Positions 5,362 through 19,236 of a stretch of DNA of 38,548 nt are shown in pieces. The notes beneath the pieces were generated by a model. That model was not told where the DNA came from and searched no databases. It saw only the letters and a program-made list of their open reading frames with translations. The translations under genes were made by a program, and so were the position numbers. Source of the DNA: a virus; the IMG/VR virus record IMGVR_UViG_3300007541_000060, positions 1 through 38,548 of that record. One strand, written 5' to 3'. The stretch's first letter is position 1. Each line of letters begins with the position of its first letter.

Positions 5362-7134
5362 ATGGCTTACCAATATTTAGACACCTTCGGTCCGGAAATA
5401 CACTTTGAAATAATAGAAACAGGTTTTAAAGATAGCACTTTTGCAGGTGCACCTGGCGGCAAACCTATTACAGGTTCAGATGGACAGTACTATCTTTTTC
5501 AAGAAGATCCATTTAATATATTATATGGTTATACTCCACCTGAGCCAGAGCCAGAGCCAGCAACTCAAGGTAATACTACGGTTGAAGAAGAACCTGTTGA
5601 TAATACTAGTGTTTATGGTAAAACATTAGTCCAGAGTAGAAAGTATAAAGCACCGGAAGGTGATAGCAGAACTGAGGGTATTCATGAAGGTGAAGCTGTT
5701 CGATCATATTTCAATAAATGGACTCTTTTTAAGTACAAGAACATAAGTGGTTTAAGTGAAAACTCACAAGGTTCTGAAGTTTCTGACAGGTATAGCACGG
5801 TTGTTAACTCAACGTCACCATATATTGCACCTACTGCTAACAATATTGTACAATATGCTGATAATATTGATTCTCTAGCTTTTAAGTACAGCTTGACTGA
5901 TTTTATCCAATGTGAACACTATGGTCAAATTTCTAATAATTACATGGTGACCTTAAGGCGCTTTGGTTATCCAATTGCAGATGACCTCATTGCGCCAAGA
6001 CAAATAGGGCCTGGTGGTGATCTTATCGATACTACACAGCCAGATATAGCGCGTGCGATTACATGGTTGAGTCCTGCATTGGGTAATGATCTAAAAGAAA
6101 TACTTAAGTTTAACGTTAAGATACCGTGGAAAGAAGAAGAGTCTGCAGTTCAAACTATTCAAGCGGGTAAGGCGAATAGAGGTGCCGTTGGCGCAATGAT
6201 TGATGGTAGCCCTATTTTTCAGGCTATTGAAAATGGTATAAACGGTTACGGCGCAGATCAAACACAGCGTGCAAATGCGGAAGGTAGTGGATTTGACCCG
6301 CTTAAGGAGACATATCCAAATACTGTTTATGGTCCTCTTAACGTGATTAAAAATATTATGGCTAGAGAACAGGGTTTAAAGTTTGAGCAAGAGTTTAAGC
6401 TAACTTTTCACTATGATTTACGCGGTTATCCTAATACAAGCCCTAAGGTTGCTTTTATGGACACTATGGCAAACTTATTAGCATTGACATATAATAATGC
6501 TCCTTTCTGGGGTGGTGCTGTTAGGTATACCGGTAGTGGCTCTCTTGGTAAACCATTTGGTGATTATAGCAAATTAGCAGCGGGTGATTATGATGGTTTC
6601 TTAAAGGGATTAGGTACTCAAATAAGTAATGCTGTTTCTACCGGTTTTGCCGATATATCTAAAGCCTTTGAAACCGGAAATCTAGGAGACTCTAAGATCT
6701 TAAACAACATTATTGGTGGAGGTCTTATGAAATTACTTAATGGACCACAAGGTGGCTCAATAGTTAACTCACTTTTAACTGGAGATCCTACTGGACAATG
6801 GCATTTAACAATCGGTAACCCAATGAACCCGATCATGATGGTTGGTAATCTAGCATGTACTGATTCTAGCTTCTCGTTTGAAGGACCATTTGGTTACGAA
6901 GATTTTCCTTCTAAATTAAAGGTTGAAATTACACTTAAACCTGCTAGAATGCGCGATAAGGGTGAGATCGAGAGTATGTTTAACGCTGGAAAGGGTAGAA
7001 TGTATCTACAGCCAGAATATGGTGCAGACATAGACAATCTTGTAAATGTATCTGCATATGGAAATAAAGATAGACTAGCTCAAGGCTTTAACGAAGACGC
7101 TATACAAAAATTGTCTGACATGACAGCTGGATAA
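5362..7134 (+). CDS. Baseplate tube-initiator-like protein (gp48/gp54 type)
   Basis: A 590-residue virion protein opening the baseplate cluster. The N-terminus contains a PEPEPEP linker (about 65-71). Residues near 180-215 carry the HYGQISNNYMVTLRRFGYP segment. The C-terminal part (about 480-560), with NPMNPIMMVGNLACTDSSF, FEGPFGYEDFP and a following VEITLKPARMRDKGEIE stretch, resembles the tail-tube-fold domain of proteins that cap the hub and start tube polymerisation. Between them lies a Gly/Asn-rich region (about 395-460). T4 gp48 and gp54 have this job but are shorter (about 320-360 residues). A partner of similar type is encoded at 9624, so the pair may be the gp48/gp54 equivalents. The start follows a promoter-like box. 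The structural role is fairly sure; the exact T4 equivalent is not. Confidence 0.7.
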   Translation: MAYQYLDTFGPEIHFEIIETGFKDSTFAGAPGGKPITGSDGQYYLFQEDPFNILYGYTPPEPEPEPATQGNTTVEEEPVDNTSVYGKTLVQSRKYKAPEGDSRTEGIHEGEAVRSYFNKWTLFKYKNISGLSENSQGSEVSDRYSTVVNSTSPYIAPTANNIVQYADNIDSLAFKYSLTDFIQCEHYGQISNNYMVTLRRFGYPIADDLIAPRQIGPGGDLIDTTQPDIARAITWLSPALGNDLKEILKFNVKIPWKEEESAVQTIQAGKANRGAVGAMIDGSPIFQAIENGINGYGADQTQRANAEGSGFDPLKETYPNTVYGPLNVIKNIMAREQGLKFEQEFKLTFHYDLRGYPNTSPKVAFMDTMANLLALTYNNAPFWGGAVRYTGSGSLGKPFGDYSKLAAGDYDGFLKGLGTQISNAVSTGFADISKAFETGNLGDSKILNNIIGGGLMKLLNGPQGGSIVNSLLTGDPTGQWHLTIGNPMNPIMMVGNLACTDSSFSFEGPFGYEDFPSKLKVEITLKPARMRDKGEIESMFNAGKGRMYLQPEYGADIDNLVNVSAYGNKDRLAQGFNEDAIQKLSDMTAG

Positions 7135-9623: not shown

Positions 9624-10928
9624 ATGGCAGACTTTGGTAAGATAAACGAATTTAGAAAGACAACTCAATTAAGGAAGATCAATGAGGATCCGACTTACTT
9701 GAGCTTCTTCTTTTTGTTTGATTCTTCTCGTGAACATTCACCTCTACTATCAGGAGTTGCCGAGGAATATTTAAGAAATGTAGTTAAAGATGAGGAAAGA
9801 GCTGATCTATTAGCTCGTTTTGTTAAACTTTTAAAGAAGATTAATTTAGAACTACCTTGGTTTTGGCAAAGCGTATCCGGGCTTGAAGCTACTAGAAAGT
9901 ATGGTAAGATGCAAGATCCTTGGTGGGGAGGCGAATCACCGAAGCTAGAGATCGAATGTCTAGAGAATATCGAACTTACTGCTGCGACTCTAATTGACTT
10001 ATATAAAAGAGCTGCATTTGATTTTAACAGATGGGTTGAAGTAATACCGAAGAATTTACGCCATTTTCAGTTGGACGTGTGGGTAACTGAAGTTAGAGGC
10101 TTTCAACAAACAACTGACGCAGGACTTTTAAATTCAAAAAATGTAGATACATCAAGGACTGAGATTAGAAATCCAGACGAAACTAACCCCGGTAACGCTA
10201 CTAACACTGAGATGCACGTTGACGCTAAACCTCTTTTTGTAACTAGATTAGGCCACTGTGAATTCGATATAGAATCTACTAGTGATACGTTTGCTGATCT
10301 GAGTAAATCGCCAGAAATGGCAAAGTCTAAAATCATGATACACTGGCTCACAGCTGAACAACAGTCGCAAAGGTACGGTGCAAACTTAAACGCCAATCAA
10401 GACAACAGTATAGCGTTCCAAAGAGATCCTGATCCTAGATTAGAGGAATATAATCCATTTGACCCTATTAACCCTATTGATAAACTCAAAGAAAGAGCGA
10501 AAGATCAATTAGATGGTGCTATTGCTGGTGTAACAAATATATTAGGTGGACTTCCAGGCAATAGAGGCGCTTTAGGTAATGCACATGGCTCTCTGTTAAC
10601 AGGGCAGCTTGGGCAACTTGCTAATTCTGTAGTCGAAGGTGCACTTGCACGACTTCTACTTGGCAACGTACATGGTATTAACGCAGCATCTACAATTCAA
10701 GATGCAATAAACGCTGGTAGTTTAAACGGTATAGCCAATGCAGCTGGGCAATTATTTAATCAGTCTAACCAGCCTTCAGGTGGAAACGACAATGATGTAA
10801 TCACTCCGAAAAAGATCTACCCAGATGTAGCGATAGATAGTTCACAAGGACCAATTAACGAAAGAGTATACGAGCCGGGGGTGGACAGTACACCAGACGG
10901 CAACTTAAACCAGAACGTACATGAATAA
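9624..10928 (+). CDS. Second baseplate tube-initiator-like protein (gp54/gp48 type)
   Basis: A 434-residue protein with an Arg/Lys-rich N-terminus, a helical region (about 45-135) and a tube-fold region in two parts: FQLDVWVTEVRGFQ (about 151-164) and FVTRLGHCEFDIESTSDTFA (about 203-222) followed by KSKIMIHW. These resemble the tail-tube domains of T4 gp48/gp54 and of tube proteins, where a long loop between strands packs on the neighbouring ring. The last 180 residues are Gly/Ala/Asn-rich with amphipathic stretches (about 310-375) of unknown role. It overlaps the spike gene by eight nucleotides, which suggests coordinated production of hub, initiator and spike. Function is confident only at the level of a hub/tube interface protein. 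Confidence 0.68.
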   Translation: MADFGKINEFRKTTQLRKINEDPTYLSFFFLFDSSREHSPLLSGVAEEYLRNVVKDEERADLLARFVKLLKKINLELPWFWQSVSGLEATRKYGKMQDPWWGGESPKLEIECLENIELTAATLIDLYKRAAFDFNRWVEVIPKNLRHFQLDVWVTEVRGFQQTTDAGLLNSKNVDTSRTEIRNPDETNPGNATNTEMHVDAKPLFVTRLGHCEFDIESTSDTFADLSKSPEMAKSKIMIHWLTAEQQSQRYGANLNANQDNSIAFQRDPDPRLEEYNPFDPINPIDKLKERAKDQLDGAIAGVTNILGGLPGNRGALGNAHGSLLTGQLGQLANSVVEGALARLLLGNVHGINAASTIQDAINAGSLNGIANAAGQLFNQSNQPSGGNDNDVITPKKIYPDVAIDSSQGPINERVYEPGVDSTPDGNLNQNVHE

Positions 10929-11637
10929 CAATGAACTTTATAGAGATAATCTTAGAGATGCGCATTGGCTTGGTGAAGTTGTGGTTAACGAAGACCCACT
11001 TCTAAAAGGCAGATGTCGTGTCAAGGTCTTTGGTAAATTTGATCTGCTGACAGACGAAGCTATTCCATGGGCAACTCCAATGAACAGAGATGCTGTAGGG
11101 TCTCACCATGTACCTAGAGTTGGTGACATTGTTGCGGTTCGTTTTGATAATGGTAACATCTATCACCCAGAATACTGGTTTCAAGTAGATCAGAATGATG
11201 ACCTTAAGACTGATGTTCTTGAGGCCTCAGACGCACCACAGGACGTCATAAGTTTAGTCTATGATGCCGAAAGAAATTTAAGAATATATCACTCACCGGA
11301 AGACGGTCTTGTCATCACGCGTGGTTCTGGTGCCAAAGAGAGACCGATGATTCAGATCGACGAAGAGGGTTTTATTAAGATCTCAACTGATGCTAAGATG
11401 TTCTTAGACTGCGGTGACATTTTTATTTCAAACGAAGGTGAAGCTGGAGCAGATGAGACTGAACCTGCAGTCCGTGGTCAATCCTTACAAGACTGGTTGC
11501 AAAAACTATTGGATGACTACAATACACACATCCACCCAACCGGAGTTGGTCCTAGCGGCCCACCAATGCCGCCAACACCAGTTACCGTTGGAGAACTTAC
11601 AGCTACTCATATTAACTATCAACAAAAAGGTAAGTAA
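10921..11637 (+). CDS. Baseplate spike protein with gp5/VgrG OB-fold, no lysozyme
   Basis: The 238-residue protein starts with an OB-fold like that of T4 gp5 and VgrG (about 14-88): HWLGEVVVNEDPLLKGRCRV, then IPWATPM and VPRVGDIVAVRFDNGN. A beta-rich needle-like region follows (about 108-175). Near the end is a helix plus NTHIHPTGVGPSGPPMPP (201-218). The HIH element recalls the metal-binding HxH at the tip of some phage spikes, although here a further 20 residues follow. T4 gp5 (575 aa) has a lysozyme domain after the OB-fold; none is present here, so peptidoglycan cutting must be done by another protein or not at the tail tip. It overlaps both neighbours (8 nt before, 1 nt after), consistent with a coupled hub operon. 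Confidence 0.85.
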   Translation: MNNNELYRDNLRDAHWLGEVVVNEDPLLKGRCRVKVFGKFDLLTDEAIPWATPMNRDAVGSHHVPRVGDIVAVRFDNGNIYHPEYWFQVDQNDDLKTDVLEASDAPQDVISLVYDAERNLRIYHSPEDGLVITRGSGAKERPMIQIDEEGFIKISTDAKMFLDCGDIFISNEGEAGADETEPAVRGQSLQDWLQKLLDDYNTHIHPTGVGPSGPPMPPTPVTVGELTATHINYQQKGK

Positions 11638-13495: not shown

Positions 13496-13504
13496 GGATA
13501 TATA
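13496..13504 (+). promoter_or_regulatory. Putative phage late promoter box (GGATATATA)
   Basis: A second copy of the GGATATATA core, in the 49-nt gap before the S1-like gene and about 29 nt before its ATG. It is preceded by TTGAAC and followed by an A/T-rich leader. The same core occurs at 5332 and 14834. If functional it would let the S1-like gene be transcribed apart from the upstream hub operon. Confidence 0.5.
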
Positions 13505-13533
13505 ATATGTTACACTTTTAATCTAAAAAATAC

Positions 13534-14817
13534 ATGTCAAACAAAAACAAGCGTACTCGCATCGGAACGACGACCGACAGCGAAGTTAAAAGAGAGCAAT
13601 CTACTCAAAACGTCGAATCAAACAACATTTCAGAGGAGCCAAAATTTGAGCATAGTGAATTCTATGACAAAGATGGTAATTTTATGTGGGATGCCTATGG
13701 GGCTTCATGTCCTTCACATAGAAGAAAACCAAACCCACATGTTAAAACCAAGGCCGGACACAGAGTTTATTGTAGAGAGTCCTACGCACAGGAAATGTAC
13801 AATTTACTAGAAAGCTTTGAAGTTAACCATGCTATCAAATCCAATATCAATGTTGGTGAAATTCACGAAGGTATTATATATGCAGTAACTCAAGATACTA
13901 TTACTGTTGATATAGGTTATAGAGAACTAGTCTACGTGAAGTCTGATAAAGAACCTCAACGTATTAAAGAACTTTCGCCAGGTGAAGAAACTGCAGTTTT
14001 AATTACTAATACCGATAATGCCTTTATTTCAGGCTCAATTTCAGGTGGTGTTAAACAGAAAGTCTTCATGGACCTTAGAGCTGGTGTTGAAGCAGGCGAT
14101 ACTGCTTGGGTTGGCCTAGTTAAGGAAATGATTGAGAACGGCGGTTATGTTGTTGAAGTACAAGGTATTGAATGTTTCATGCCAGGTTCACTTGCGGGCA
14201 TTAACAAGCTTGCAGACTTTGAGTCAATCATCGGCCAAGAACTCTATGTGGTACCAGTATCTTTCTCAGCAGGTAGAGGCACAATAGTTGTTTCACACAG
14301 AAAATACTTACAGGCCTTAATTCCACAGGAGATTGAGAAGATTAAAGAGAATGCCGGTGAAGAAATCACAGGTAACGTAACAGGAACTGCTAAATACGGC
14401 GTCTTCGTTGAATTTAATAGATGTTTGACAGGTATGATTCACAAGAATGATTTAGATCCAGAAACATTCGAGAAGTTTAAGAAGCGTGAAATTATGCCGG
14501 CGGATGAAGTTACCTTTAAAGTAAAGGATGTTATCTCGAACACTAAGATTACTTTAACTCAGATCGATAATGTACAAACTAGCCCATGGGATGATATTAC
14601 ATCAAGGTACAAGATTCCAGCTGTTGTTAAGGCTCAAGTAAAAGCCAAGAAAGACTATGGCCTTTTTGTTACAATCGAGGACGGTGTTACTGGACTGCTA
14701 CACGTTAGTGAATTAGGTGAAGATGTAATGAAAGTCTTTAACCCAGGTGATGAAATCACGGTTAAGATAACTCGAATTGAAGAGGAGACTCAGAAGGTCT
14801 TTCTTAAATTACCATAA
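13534..14817 (+). CDS. Ribosomal protein S1-like protein, four S1 domains
   Basis: A 427-residue RNA-binding protein. Four S1 (OB-fold) repeats are visible: about 105-170, 187-256 (ending IVVSHRKYL), 276-345 (GNVTGTAKYGVFVEF, then GMIHKNDL) and 360-427 (AQVKAKKDYGLFVTIEDGV, then GLLHVSEL). The order and the IECFMPGSLAG and VVSHRK elements match ribosomal S1 rather than RNase E, PNPase or Tex, which have single S1 domains. The N-terminal 100 residues are hydrophilic; a GNFMWDAYG segment (48-56) resembles the motif preceding domain 1 in Bacteroidota S1 as I remember it. Two Cys (59, 80) and nearby His could bind metal. Cellular S1 has six repeats, so this is shortened. It has its own promoter-like box. 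Likely role: recruiting phage mRNAs to ribosomes or displacing host S1 (inference). Confidence 0.88.
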   Translation: MSNKNKRTRIGTTTDSEVKREQSTQNVESNNISEEPKFEHSEFYDKDGNFMWDAYGASCPSHRRKPNPHVKTKAGHRVYCRESYAQEMYNLLESFEVNHAIKSNINVGEIHEGIIYAVTQDTITVDIGYRELVYVKSDKEPQRIKELSPGEETAVLITNTDNAFISGSISGGVKQKVFMDLRAGVEAGDTAWVGLVKEMIENGGYVVEVQGIECFMPGSLAGINKLADFESIIGQELYVVPVSFSAGRGTIVVSHRKYLQALIPQEIEKIKENAGEEITGNVTGTAKYGVFVEFNRCLTGMIHKNDLDPETFEKFKKREIMPADEVTFKVKDVISNTKITLTQIDNVQTSPWDDITSRYKIPAVVKAQVKAKKDYGLFVTIEDGVTGLLHVSELGEDVMKVFNPGDEITVKITRIEEETQKVFLKLP

Positions 14818-14833
14818 GCTACTTATTTGAGCC

Positions 14834-14842
14834 GGATATATA
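14834..14842 (+). promoter_or_regulatory. Putative phage late promoter box (GGATATATA)
   Basis: Third exact GGATATATA core, in the 50-nt gap before the amidoligase gene and about 25 nt before its ATG. It overlaps the left arm of a small inverted repeat (14838-14859). Recurrence ahead of three separate gene groups is the basis for calling it a promoter. Confidence 0.5.
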
Positions 14843-14859
14843 TTCAAACAAGAATATAT
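14838..14859. repeat. 8-bp inverted repeat before the amidoligase gene
   Basis: Arms ATATATTC (14838-14845) and GAATATAT (14852-14859) are separated by AAACAA. There is no U-run after it, so it is not a standard terminator. It overlaps the promoter-like box and ends eight nucleotides before the start codon, next to a CGAGCTCG palindrome (14860-14867). It could be an operator or an RNA hairpin masking the leader in read-through transcripts; it may also be a by-product of A/T-rich sequence. Confidence 0.35.
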
Positions 14860-14867
14860 CGAGCTCG

Positions 14868-16178
14868 ATGAATAAACTAAGTAGACAGTCTACAAGAGAG
14901 TCAATTCTCAATGCAGCCTTAATGGGCATTGAATTTGAATTCTATTCAAAAAAGAACCTAGAAGAAACTCAAAAAATGCTTGAGGATCTTCTAGGTTTAC
15001 CTATTAGTCTAGAAGAAAAGGCACACTCTGACTTTCAACCAACAGACAAACACTTTAAGATGGAGCCTGATATGTCAGGTGGTTCAGGCTTAATTGAGCT
15101 TGTGACTGGTGCGATGCCTTATCGTAATGCTAGGATTGTTGTTATTAAGATGTTGGGCTGGATTAGAGAACATGGTTACACAACGGATAGAGCTTCAATC
15201 CACCTAAACTTATCGTTTGATAAGAAGTATCTTGAAGATCCGATGATGGTATCAAAGATGAACACTCTTAAGTTTATCTTGACTTTTAATGAAAAACAGG
15301 TCTATAAGTTCTTTCCAAATAGAGAGAACTCGGTTTATGCAAAGTCAATTAAGTTCGTGATGCCAAAACATGAGGCTGCTCATTTTAGCGCTGAACATGT
15401 TAACCCAATGAACTTTATATTTCCAGACACTAAATACTATGGTGTTAACTTCTTAAAGAAAGAGAAGAACTACCTAGAGTTCAGGTATATCGGCGGTAAA
15501 GATTACGAACAACGCCAAGATGATATACTTTATATGTCTGAGAGGTTTCTCTTACAACTATTTAAAGCATGTTCTCAGCCAGAATTTACAGCTGAAGATA
15601 AAATTGAGCTTAAATATATCTTAAATAAGAACTTACCTATTTTTGAGGCTTTAAAAGACCATAGGAACTTAAATAAACACTGGCCGAAGATTAATATCTT
15701 AGTAGATCTACAAGATGACTACCAAATTATTAAAGTACATTGGGATAGAATTAAAAGAAGGGTAATGGACTTAATTATCCATGGCTCTCTAGAAGAAGGT
15801 ACAATTAACTATGATTCTGACTTCTCTTCGATTCAGGTTAAAGATGGTAAGATGCCAACTTGTTTCGCTGCTGAAAATTACGAGTTTATTACGTCTGAAA
15901 TTAGAGGTAATTTAATTAACTGTGACTTTTACGCTTGTAAAGTTGAAGGCTCAGATCTACAATATTGTAATTTTTATCAGTCAACTGAGATTAAAGAGTC
16001 TAAGGTCCAGTCTTCATATGTACATGGTAGCTGTAGCGCTGTTAACTGTTATGTTTTCGGTAGAGACGGTATCTTTAAAGGCAGAATGATAGGTGGTATA
16101 TTTAGAGAGGGTAATATCGGCCCTTATGCTAGATTTGACGATACGGAAATCGTAGTAAGTAAAAAAATAAATTCATAA
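14868..16178 (+). CDS. Putative COOH-NH2 amidoligase with pentapeptide-like C-terminus
   Basis: Residues 1-300 carry the signature of the amidoligase family of the glutamine-synthetase-like COOH-NH2 ligase fold: GIEFEF (20-25, the ExE pair expected to bind metal-ATP), EPDMSGGSGLIELVTG (67-81 region), ASIHLNLSF (109-117) and LEFRYIGG (203-210). Such enzymes use ATP to form amide or peptide-like bonds. The normal HxH in the third motif is HLN here, so one metal ligand may differ. Residues about 340-425 form short repeats with Cys/Asn-Phe/Tyr spacing (NCDFYACKVEGSDLQYCNFY) like pentapeptide repeats or a small beta-helix, perhaps for target binding or oligomerisation. It sits between S1 and baseplate genes and ends one nucleotide before the next start. 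The substrate is unknown; peptide tagging of a protein or cell-wall chemistry are possible. Confidence 0.75.
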   Translation: MNKLSRQSTRESILNAALMGIEFEFYSKKNLEETQKMLEDLLGLPISLEEKAHSDFQPTDKHFKMEPDMSGGSGLIELVTGAMPYRNARIVVIKMLGWIREHGYTTDRASIHLNLSFDKKYLEDPMMVSKMNTLKFILTFNEKQVYKFFPNRENSVYAKSIKFVMPKHEAAHFSAEHVNPMNFIFPDTKYYGVNFLKKEKNYLEFRYIGGKDYEQRQDDILYMSERFLLQLFKACSQPEFTAEDKIELKYILNKNLPIFEALKDHRNLNKHWPKINILVDLQDDYQIIKVHWDRIKRRVMDLIIHGSLEEGTINYDSDFSSIQVKDGKMPTCFAAENYEFITSEIRGNLINCDFYACKVEGSDLQYCNFYQSTEIKESKVQSSYVHGSCSAVNCYVFGRDGIFKGRMIGGIFREGNIGPYARFDDTEIVVSKKINS

Positions 16179-16179
16179 A

Positions 16180-17022
16180 ATGAGTGAAATTAGAAGTGGT
16201 AATGAAAGTGGTTTAACAACTCCTAGAGATTTTAGCAGTGATTGTTTAAACGAGTTTCTAGATGAGATCGGTGATGAGATTACCGGTGCTTGTATGGTAC
16301 CTGTTAATCTACCTAAAAAGGAGATCATCAACATTATCAAGAGAGCTAAAAAATGGTTCTACAAGAAATATGAAGACTCTGTTAAGGAGAACTATTATCA
16401 TATCCCGAAAGAGATTTTTGAGACTGAATATTTTAAGAAGCATAGATGTTTGACTCTACCAGATGCTGCGGCTGATGGTGCGGGCAAAGTCTACTCAGTA
16501 TACGGTGTTTATGACCTTGCGAGTGGCTGGAACAACATGGGTGGGGGCCTAGACTTAAGATTCCAATCCGGTGCTGACTTTGCACTTGAAAAAATGTTAT
16601 TCAGAAGAATGTACGATGGTTCAGGGCCAGCGCAAGCAGCTGAAGAATTACAGTATTACGTGCTTAACGCTTCACTTGCTGATTTATCAAGACAGATTCT
16701 TGAGAATCCGATCTCTTTTCAGTACTCAAGATTAACTGGTGATTTAAAGTTCATGGGTGATACACCAAAGGGTGGTGTTATTCTAGAGGTTTATGAGACA
16801 ATTCCAGACTGCGCACTCTATGATGATGAGATCTTCTTTAGATACATTAGTGCTAAAATTAAACAGTCACTTGGTGCTAAGTTAGGTATCTTCAAGTTTG
16901 CTCTGCCAGGTAATGTTGACTTCGATTATGATGCTATTAAATCAATGGGCGATGATGAACTTGCTGCTATTGAAGAAGAAATCAAGGGTGATGAAGGTGT
17001 GGACTGGATGTTCCATAGCTAA
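16180..17022 (+). CDS. Probable virion structural protein, family unknown (280 aa)
   Basis: Starts one nucleotide after the amidoligase stop, so the two are probably co-transcribed. The protein has a helical N-terminal region with a basic stretch (about 48-70, IIKRAKKWFYKKYED). The centre has GGGLDLRFQSGADFALEKML and a beta-rich part (PISFQYSRLTGDLKFMGDTP, then VILEVYETIPD). Near the end are a KIKQSLGAKLGIFKFALPGN segment and an acidic tail ending in Trp-Met-Phe. I associate this layout with a conserved structural protein of large myoviruses, possibly a connector, neck or baseplate component, but cannot fix which. Position directly before the gp25-like gene favours the baseplate. Confidence 0.75.
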   Translation: MSEIRSGNESGLTTPRDFSSDCLNEFLDEIGDEITGACMVPVNLPKKEIINIIKRAKKWFYKKYEDSVKENYYHIPKEIFETEYFKKHRCLTLPDAAADGAGKVYSVYGVYDLASGWNNMGGGLDLRFQSGADFALEKMLFRRMYDGSGPAQAAEELQYYVLNASLADLSRQILENPISFQYSRLTGDLKFMGDTPKGGVILEVYETIPDCALYDDEIFFRYISAKIKQSLGAKLGIFKFALPGNVDFDYDAIKSMGDDELAAIEEEIKGDEGVDWMFHS

Positions 17023-17039
17023 AAGAGATACATATAAAG

Positions 17040-17396
17040 ATGGAATTGTACATTAAATATATAGGAGATCCTAACTATGATCCAAATCAAGTTCATGTTG
17101 AGAATGAAGTACAACAACTTATAACTCAAATTGAAACTATTCTTTTTACTGATAAAGGAGAAGTTTTAGGAGCTCCTGGATTTGGCTGCAATTTAGAAGA
17201 TTTGATATATTCATTAGGTTACAATGAACATCAATTGAAATCAACAATAGAAGGTCAGATAAACGCGTATTGTCCACTGGCTAAAAAATATAACGTGAAA
17301 ACCAAAATTAGCTTTTTACGAGGTACTGTTAGAGATGTTGCTTATATCGACATCACGGTCGATAGCAAGTATCTTGTGCAGGTTTACGTAAATTAA
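17040..17396 (+). CDS. Baseplate wedge protein, gp25/GpW-like
   Basis: A 118-residue protein with the hallmark of the gp25-like family at 37-57: TDKGEVLGAPGFGCNLEDLI. In T4-type and P2-type tails this small protein sits at the inner end of each wedge, contacts the gp6 dimer and provides the template for the first sheath ring. Its length is normal (T4 gp25 is 132 aa). The following gene encodes the gp6/J-like partner, the expected neighbour. It starts 18 nt after the previous stop behind an A/T-rich leader. Confidence 0.92.
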   Translation: MELYIKYIGDPNYDPNQVHVENEVQQLITQIETILFTDKGEVLGAPGFGCNLEDLIYSLGYNEHQLKSTIEGQINAYCPLAKKYNVKTKISFLRGTVRDVAYIDITVDSKYLVQVYVN

Positions 17397-17409: not shown

Positions 17410-19236
17410 ATGGCAGATCTTAAATTTTTAAATAAGCTTAGAGTAACAGGTGCTCAGATTAAACAGGATGCAAGAACGTATATTTCTCGTGTCTACAATC
17501 GCGCAGGTACCTTGTTCACTGACGCCTCTCCTTTCGCACAGCTCTTAAATGTAATGAGTGAGATGAGTGAATTGATTATGTTCTACGTAGAAGATTCTTT
17601 AGTGGAACAGAATATTTACACGGCCCAACAAGCCGAGTCAATTTACGGTATGTCAAGACTAACTGGACATGATGCAACTAGAGGATATGCTGCTTTTGGT
17701 GAAATTGAGTTTAGGTGGAAACCAGGCGCTGATTTTGTTAAAATTGCAGGTACTGGTCTAACATTTGACGGTAGAGCTGTTATTAAGTTCGACTCAAATG
17801 GTCTAAAGTACACTGTTCAAACACCAAGAGAAAGATTTAGAGTTGAGAAAAGCAATAAGAATAAATTTACATGTGAAATTATACAGGGTGAATATGAATC
17901 ACAAACTGTAACTGGGACTGGAGAGAATCTACAGTCTTATAATATAAACGTTAGAGGATTAACCGACCATAATAAAATTACAGTCTACGTAAACGGTGAA
18001 GTATGGACTAAACATGTTTCACTCTATGATATGAACGCTAACGAAAAAGCTTACATGGTTAAGACTGGAATTAGCGGCGGATTAGACGTTTACTTTGGTA
18101 ACGGTTCTTTTGGTATGCCACCGGCAAATGGTGCCACAATCGAGATTGAGTATATTAAACACAGTGGCTCTAAAGGTAATTTGCCTGATGGTTCAGATCT
18201 AACTGTAAAATGGGAAACGGAAGGTGAAGATTCAATTGGAGAACTACATGACCTAAATGAATTCTTTGATGTAACAGTAACATCTTCTCCGAAGATGGGA
18301 GCAGATCGTGAATCAACTGATTTTACAAGGATTCTAACACCACTTGCAAGTAAGTCATATGTGTTGGCCACTCCAGACAACTATGAGTACTTCTTATCTA
18401 AGTACAATCAGTTTTCATATATCGATGCATATAGCCGCACAGACGACCAGTATTTAGACGACGACAATGTGGTTTACATCTTTGCAATGCCAGACTTTAA
18501 GAGAAAGTTAACGGCAGGTATGGATTATTTCTCGCTGCCACAGCAAGAGATGTTCTTTACACAAAGCGAATATGATGCAATGTATCAAGTGCTGCAAAAC
18601 TCAGGCCAGATGATGATGGCTGCTGAAGTTAAATTCGTAGAACCAATTGTCAAGAAGTATAGTATGGATGTTGCAATCAGATACTTTGATGGCTTTAGTA
18701 AACAAGAGATTGCAAACGATGTAAGAGCTGCTATCTCAAATTATATGCTTAACATTACGAGAAGAGATAAGCTGCCTAAGTCAGACATTGTCTATATTCT
18801 TGAAGAGATTGAAGGTATTGATTCGGTTAACGTAAGGTTCATTAGTCAGAAAGAAGAAGATGTGCTTAGATTGGGTTACTATGAGACTGTAACTACAACT
18901 ATCCAGCCACAAGAACCAGTTACTCTTGAAAATATTGGTAACGGTAAACAAAAGTATGTGTTCTTCCAGAAGATTGAAGAGTCTAATCTAGTTAGAATTA
19001 ACCCAGGAGATTCTATCCCAGACTCAGTTAGAGGCTTAGATCAATGGGGCGATATTGTAATGGGCAAAGATGAAGTTGCTATTTTTAGAGGTGGTTGGTT
19101 AGACCGTGATGGTGATCTTGTTGATGACGATGTAAAATTAAATGAAGAGGCTGCACTGAGTATAAACTTTGATGAAGCTCCTGTGCCTAGAACAATTTAC
19201 ACTAGAGTACAAGCTGGAAATAGAAAAGCGTTATAA
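17410..19236 (+). CDS. Baseplate wedge protein, gp6/baseplate J-like
   Basis: A 608-residue protein that should form the ring of wedges around the hub. The N-terminus (SPFAQLLNVMSEMSELIMFY, about 39-58, then AESIYGMSRLTGHDATRGYA) matches the start of gp6/J proteins. The centre is beta-rich, with DGRAVIKFDSNGL and GLDVYFGNGSFGMPPANGA. The J-like C-terminal half has YSMDVAIRYFDGFSKQEIAN, ISNYMLNITRRDKLPKSDIV and EEIEGIDSVNVRFI, as in T4 gp6. Residues 565-575 hold an acidic DRDGDLVDDD loop that could bind calcium. T4 gp6 is 660 aa, so the length agrees. It lies between the gp25-like gene and a gene in the gp7 position; the next ORF overlaps its stop by one base. Confidence 0.9.
   Translation: MADLKFLNKLRVTGAQIKQDARTYISRVYNRAGTLFTDASPFAQLLNVMSEMSELIMFYVEDSLVEQNIYTAQQAESIYGMSRLTGHDATRGYAAFGEIEFRWKPGADFVKIAGTGLTFDGRAVIKFDSNGLKYTVQTPRERFRVEKSNKNKFTCEIIQGEYESQTVTGTGENLQSYNINVRGLTDHNKITVYVNGEVWTKHVSLYDMNANEKAYMVKTGISGGLDVYFGNGSFGMPPANGATIEIEYIKHSGSKGNLPDGSDLTVKWETEGEDSIGELHDLNEFFDVTVTSSPKMGADRESTDFTRILTPLASKSYVLATPDNYEYFLSKYNQFSYIDAYSRTDDQYLDDDNVVYIFAMPDFKRKLTAGMDYFSLPQQEMFFTQSEYDAMYQVLQNSGQMMMAAEVKFVEPIVKKYSMDVAIRYFDGFSKQEIANDVRAAISNYMLNITRRDKLPKSDIVYILEEIEGIDSVNVRFISQKEEDVLRLGYYETVTTTIQPQEPVTLENIGNGKQKYVFFQKIEESNLVRINPGDSIPDSVRGLDQWGDIVMGKDEVAIFRGGWLDRDGDLVDDDVKLNEEAALSINFDEAPVPRTIYTRVQAGNRKAL

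Follow-up and report, generated by a model that had tools for sequence, protein, structure and literature searches.

A ribosomal S1 homologue encoded among the baseplate genes of a large phage belongs to an old huge-phage family and probably acts at translation initiation

We analyzed a 38,548-nucleotide stretch of viral DNA (positions 1 to 38,548 of IMG/VR record IMGVR_UViG_3300007541_000060, henceforth the window). The window carries a gene for a protein with tandem S1 domains, henceforth phage S1, that lies among genes for tail structure. The features of this region are as follows.

10921..11637, + strand: baseplate spike OB protein (Phage_base_V, gpV), by Pfam and PHROG
13497..13504, + strand: GATATATA box, a recurrent phage promoter-like element, 29 nt before the S1 start
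13506..13522, + strand: S1-specific leader TATGTTACACYTTTAAT, 17 nt, between box and start
13534..14817, + strand: phage S1 gene, 427 aa, ATG start; predicted bS1 OB1-OB4 plus a ~105-aa N-terminal extension
14868..16178, + strand: protein with a predicted glutamine-synthetase (GS) fold, amidoligase-like; next gene after S1
16180..17022, + strand: "head-tail adaptor Ad2" protein, by PHROG
17040..17396, + strand: gp25-like baseplate wedge protein
17410..19236, + strand: baseplate wedge protein, gp6-type
5333, 14835, 28597 and 35451: further GATATATA boxes, 21-57 nt upstream of the genes at 5362, 14868, 28639 and 35516

An earlier reading of this DNA by eye (the sequence-only reading) had placed the S1 gene inside a baseplate cluster, and the annotations agree: the gpV/spike, gp25 and gp6-type wedge genes flank it. 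Genes for a dCMP deaminase (549-1079) and a PHROG 2488 DNA helicase (1064-2794) lie at the edge of the structural block. The 436-aa product of 14868-16178 has a GS fold in its structural model (pLDDT 90.7; Foldseek match to GS at 1.5e-5), contains the motifs G.EFEFYS and EPD.SGG..EL.TGP and has no Pfam match above the cut-off. It is probably an amidoligase-like enzyme.

Within the S1 gene we distinguished four OB domains and two N-terminal elements.

13681..13698, + strand: FMWDAY codons (residues 50-55), an N-terminal motif common to Bacteroidota bS1
13777..13812, + strand: ESYAQEMYNLLE codons (residues 82-93), a predicted helix just before OB1 and candidate uS2-docking helix
13849..14037, + strand: OB1 (residues ~106-168)
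14101..14301, + strand: OB2 (residues ~190-256)
14353..14562, + strand: OB3 (residues ~274-343)
14611..14811, + strand: OB4 (residues ~360-426)

The entire protein matched Pfam S1 at 4.2e-26. Domain by domain, OB3 and OB4 were above the cut-off, OB1 (20.5 bits) was just under it, and OB2 had no match to this single-domain model. Pfam finds S1 domains only, and the bS1 architecture is visible because whole-protein comparisons were used. Residues 106-425 are colinear with residues 19-345 of E. coli S1, which are domains 1-4 (phmmer against the PDB, 2e-41), and NCBIfam S1 models match with values up to 5e-47. None of the NCBIfam rpsA equivalog cut-offs was reached (best 160 bits vs 524; 145 vs 577), and the same cut-offs shut out many Bacillota S1 too. 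The AlphaFold2 model, built with 80 phage sequences, reaches a mean pLDDT of 84.5 and contains a helix at residues 85-93 besides four OB barrels; its best Foldseek matches are bS1 on the 30S in mRNA-delivery complexes (1.8e-26). With four OB domains in this model and not the six of E. coli, phage S1 is without OB5-6; Bacillota genomes also hold short bS1 forms, which cover only model positions ~1-350. By sequence and by model, the product of 13534-14817 is identified as a full homologue of bS1 OB1-OB4 in the E. coli order. The sequence-only reading, in which four S1 domains denoted ribosomal S1 and not a nuclease, is borne out by the PDB search, AlphaFold2 and Foldseek, and the profile-level match runs over tandem OB domains in bS1 order. 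We rejected a single-S1 nuclease of the RNase R or PNPase kind, as the protein consists of the N-terminal extension and four OB domains, with no catalytic domain.

The S1 gene is under purifying selection, with dN/dS of 0.10-0.16 against near relatives and differences mostly at silent sites. Its start codon and 5' leader are kept in relatives. The promoter-like box earlier attributed to the gene is real. It is GATATATA at 13497-13504, which recurs before other genes and is not a sigma-70 promoter; a scan for sigma-70 promoters and terminators around the S1 gene found nothing above chance. In two large relatives, 27 of 33 and 26 of 32 copies of GATATATA fall in intergenic DNA, which makes up 11%, and most of them lie 19-34 nt ahead of a gene. 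From this distribution we read GATATATA as a putative phage promoter element and candidate promoter class, and we infer that it is a late promoter. The leader TATGTTACACYTTTAAT occurs once per locus, only before S1, and is kept in many relatives with diverged coding sequence. Hairpin autoregulation of S1 is unsupported because the leader is unstructured: RNA folding gave no stable structure (z -0.21). The window had no Rfam match. An imperfect palindrome (14831-14866) surrounds the GATATATA box before the GS-fold gene and may be an operator or an RNA hairpin; the window sequence is more foldable than its shuffled versions (z -3.1), and relatives show little covariation.

We searched for relatives of phage S1 in viral and cellular genomes. 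A first viral scan found 49 S1 loci (26-92% identity), and alignment-based IMG/VR scans retrieved at least 496, at least 581 and at least 586 relatives. The family is common in huge phages, and a multi-domain phage S1 is not as unusual as had been supposed. These scans used alignment queries; the single-sequence queries with LR745206 and LR756500 S1 gave one relative each, owing to unlucky peptide patterns. S1 homologues are present in Lak megaphages (three OB domains), LR756500, LR756501, LR756502, LR756504 and LR745206. Phage S1 carries the FMP(G/N)(S/T) signature of OB2 and groups with the Lak and LR7565xx S1. A search of 84,980 bacterial and archaeal species genomes with the same signature returned one relative only, encoded on a Lak-like contig of a MAG; this speaks against a host gene. 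The MAG is labelled Clostridium, and the contig with this Lak-like, apparently TAG-recoded S1 (L060) is probably a misbinned phage contig.

The alignment and tree against Bacteroidota and other S1 that the sequence-only reading had proposed yielded a separate, long-branched phage clade. The tree comprised 89 phage rows and 33 reference rows and was built by a quick method that does not fix the attachment of the phage clade within the bacterial part; the tested members of the family, 88 clusters with Lak and further huge phages among them, are set off by a branch of 100% SH-aLRT support as one clade, far from bacterial S1. Phage S1 does not group with Bacteroidota bS1 in this tree. Descent from a Bacteroidota gene is unsupported because the OB body, which is very diverged, is not nearer to the bS1 of Bacteroidota than to that of other bacteria (PDB phmmer, tree and HH alignment). 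We rejected recent capture from a host because of the long branch of the clade, and host rpsA as assembly contamination because of the separate clade and the conserved phage synteny. The phage belongs to an old and widespread huge-phage S1 family.

The motif F.W..[FY] is found in the N-terminal tail of 6/6 Bacteroidota bS1 (four labelled records, one unlabelled fecal contig and PDB 9zcd, with Bacteroidota references taken from plasmid records) and of 0/26 other bacterial S1, 22 of which are Bacillota-type sequences cut 40 residues ahead of the match. It is carried by 48/88 phage clusters (0.2% of other phage ORFs), and the shorter F.W by 57/88 (7% of other phage ORFs); the FxW motif is absent in the LR745206-like clade and some other clades. 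In HH alignments the phage profile matches Bacteroidota bS1 from residue 45, with GNFMWDAY opposite EDFNWDAF, and Proteobacteria and Chlamydiota S1 from residue 85. The resemblance of GNFMWDAYG to Bacteroidota S1, first noted by eye, therefore held in both the motif counts and the alignment. The OB2 motif that had been cited beside it (IECFMPGSLAG/VVSHRK) turned out to be mostly generic bS1. Because no special closeness to Bacteroidota is seen outside this segment, FxWDA(Y/F) may stem from shared ancestry or may have arisen as the protein adapted to the same site of docking.

We also assessed conservation at the contact positions published for E. coli bS1 (PMC10123108). The segment ESYAQEMY resembles the E. 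coli docking helix ESFAQLF (ESFAQLFEESL), with some uncertainty in the exact register; the uS2 contacts of that helix are described in PMC10123108. R130 in OB1 takes the position of E. coli Lys43, which goes into the uS2 zinc pocket (PMC10123108); this position is K/R in 62 of 89 phage rows and Gly in 24. In OB2, Y205 and F215 correspond to the mRNA-contact positions F120 and F130. Every one of the 89 phage rows has Y or F at the F120 position, F at the F130 position and P at the P132 position. The RNA-contact set of OB3 (Y288, F291, H303) is nearly invariant among phages, and OB4, with the counterpart residues Y375, F378 and H390, varies more. By this comparison, the ribosome- and RNA-contact residues appear largely kept in phage S1.

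We examined translation starts, counting only those where the upstream gene ends nearby. Shine-Dalgarno (SD)-like tetramers precede 0/20 starts in the window, and 3.0% and 3.4% of starts in two large relatives versus 11-12% at internal Met codons. In the window and these two relatives, A at -14 to -11 occurs at 56-67% of starts. Six S1-bearing clades show the same SD-poor, A-rich trend, and a small Bacillota control of 12 starts had 58% SD. In Bacteroidota, initiation is helped by A at -12/-13, and a model puts OB4 of bS1 at -12 to -15 (PMC6847099). The SD-less, A-rich starts are the Bacteroidota pattern. The rarity of SD sites in huge phages with rpS1 has been noted before (PMC7162821). The source phage is large and probably infects Bacteroidota, a host phylum that we infer.

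Genes for other translation factors are found in large relatives, whose contigs are fragments, so that absence means little: bS21 is present in 5 of 15 and IF3 in 5 of 14, two of which have bS21 too. Neither bS21 nor IF3 was found in the window itself. Three large relatives of the window (G022, G023 and G025) encode a 71-codon bS21. In near relatives this bS21 is Flavobacterium-like: the best PDB match of the G022 and G023 proteins is 7jil, which we take to be the F. johnsoniae ribosome and which shares its bS21 chain with 9zcd. In E. coli, bS21 links OB1 to 16S rRNA (PMC10123108), and phage bS21 has been proposed to work in late replication (PMC9723584).

We consider it likely that phage S1, as a phage-lineage bS1, works at translation initiation on the 30S subunit of its host, most likely a member of the Bacteroidota. 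The N-terminal extension (FxWDAY and the ESYAQEMY helix) and OB1 would dock near uS2, OB2 would lie beside the mRNA exit channel, and OB3-OB4 would grip the mRNA where it is single-stranded and A-rich, around -14 to -11. Host ribosomes would hide their anti-SD, and phage S1 would favor SD-less, A-leadered phage mRNAs. It would replace or supplement host bS1, with phage bS21 in near relatives and IF3 in others. A phage promoter of its own would probably drive its synthesis, in step with that of the structural proteins and presumably late. We hold replacement of host S1 to be less likely than action on the ribosome in initiation. Replacement and mRNA selection would both fit the SD-less, A-rich starts and the presence of bS21 or IF3 in relatives. 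At the sequence level there is evidence that phage S1 is fitted to Bacteroidota-type initiation. The model is weakened because the absence of SD sites would follow from a Bacteroidota host alone; the missed equivalog cut-offs, the divergence of the OB body, the clades without FxW and the Gly rows at the Lys43 position also count against it. In a further proposal that we offer tentatively and regard as doubtful, an ancient, phage-only bS1 with bS21, with or without IF3, would remake the mRNA exit site into a phage-specialized Bacteroidota ribosome, in which FxWDAY would take the seat of host bS1, OB4 would read the A-rich -14 to -11 stretch and the TATGTTACACYTTTAAT leader may allow self-regulation.

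S1 domains are generic RNA binders, the curated bS1 cut-offs were missed, and the OB3/OB4 contacts are kept, whereas the Lys43-type residue and the FxW motif are missing from some clades. These observations would suit a protein that works away from the 30S, either coating, protecting or unwinding phage mRNAs or titrating a host factor. We nevertheless think this unlikely, as the whole family keeps OB1-OB2, which in bS1 serve the ribosome and not free RNA (PMC10123108), and among the bacterial S1 compared the N-terminal motif is confined to Bacteroidota bS1. Quite improbable, in our view, is an inhibitor or decoy that fills the bS1 site and, without OB5-OB6, blocks host translation instead of aiding that of the phage. 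Such a protein would be short with docking parts retained, as here, and a dominant block would help the phage too if its mRNAs were S1-independent; however, the RNA-contact residues of OB3-OB4 are conserved, the A-rich, SD-less phage starts are of the kind attributed to bS1, and the promoter box is apparently common to S1 and structural genes, when translation must go on.

The position between spike and wedge genes would fit a virion or baseplate component. In about 216 of 258 loci, of which some share a contig, the GS-fold gene comes immediately after S1, and contigs that extend far enough continue with the adaptor, gp25 and gp6 genes. In the LR745206-like clade, however, S1 follows tail-fibre genes and the GS-fold and gp6 genes are elsewhere, tens to hundreds of kb off, so S1 is separable from the baseplate block; S1, GS-fold and gp6 genes lie at 470, 311 and 285 kb in G035 and at 156, 236 and 179 kb in G036. 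The best fold and sequence matches are all ribosomal S1, and RNA-contact residues are conserved. S1 is probably not a baseplate part, and we give a structural role very little weight. A subunit of a phage RNA polymerase or recombination complex, for which host S1 in Q-beta replicase is a precedent (PMC13157829, PMC10123108), is hardly credible, as we saw no tie to polymerase genes and the gene context is structural.

We compared phage S1 to known systems. It is a member of the already known huge-phage rpS1, of which both the kind and the ribosome-hijack idea were published in 2020 (Al-Shayeb et al., PMC7162821). The Lak and LR7565xx proteins are homologous to it, with the same proposed role and the same link to missing SD sites, and LR756500 has S1 in the same gene block as the window. 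Whereas that study described S1-domain proteins in a few genomes, here they form one clade of 88 clusters. New relative to it are the Bacteroidota N-terminal motif, the synteny, the promoter box and the S1-only leader. Our analysis also adds the largely kept contact residues, the A-rich stretch at the SD-less starts of this phage, and the bS21 or IF3 genes of its relatives. Phage S1 is thus old and widely inherited in huge phages, not a stray capture, and it accompanies bS21 or IF3 in several lineages.

Bacteroidota bS1 (Parabacteroides, Bacteroides, Prevotella and PDB 9zcd) has the same OB1-OB4 order and the N-terminal FxW..(F/Y), whereas phage S1 is without OB5-OB6, has ~20 extra residues inserted between the motif and the helix, and stands apart in the tree on a long branch. 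E. coli bS1 (6h4n, 9gut) aligns across its residues 19-345 and its uS2-docking ESFAQ resembles ESYAQ, but identity in the fold match is 27%, and phage S1 lacks OB5-OB6 and has a longer N-terminus. The bS1 of jumbo cyanophage PhiMa05 (PMC13157829) is also short and phage-encoded. It was traced to a Vampirovibrio-like host (PMC13157829) and, unlike phage S1, lies among Bacillota-type S1 in our tree, on a long branch; because of this placement we regard it as a separate acquisition. Bacteroidota ribosomes work without Shine-Dalgarno pairing, which raises the question of whether bS1 recognizes their A-rich leaders (PMC6847099). As a minimal test protein one could use a compact natural OB1-OB4 bS1 such as this, from phages with A-rich SD-less starts.

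The bS21 of Bacteroidetes phages (PMC9723584) belongs to the same site on the ribosome, and a comparable hijack in the late phase was proposed for it; bS21 is found here in near relatives too. It is a different protein, described in a study that included transcript data and mentioned no further ribosomal protein genes. The window has no tRNA genes; among the bS21-bearing relatives, G022 has an array of 25 tRNAs at 135.7-140.2 kb of its contig (L310-L311) and G025 has 15 tRNAs.
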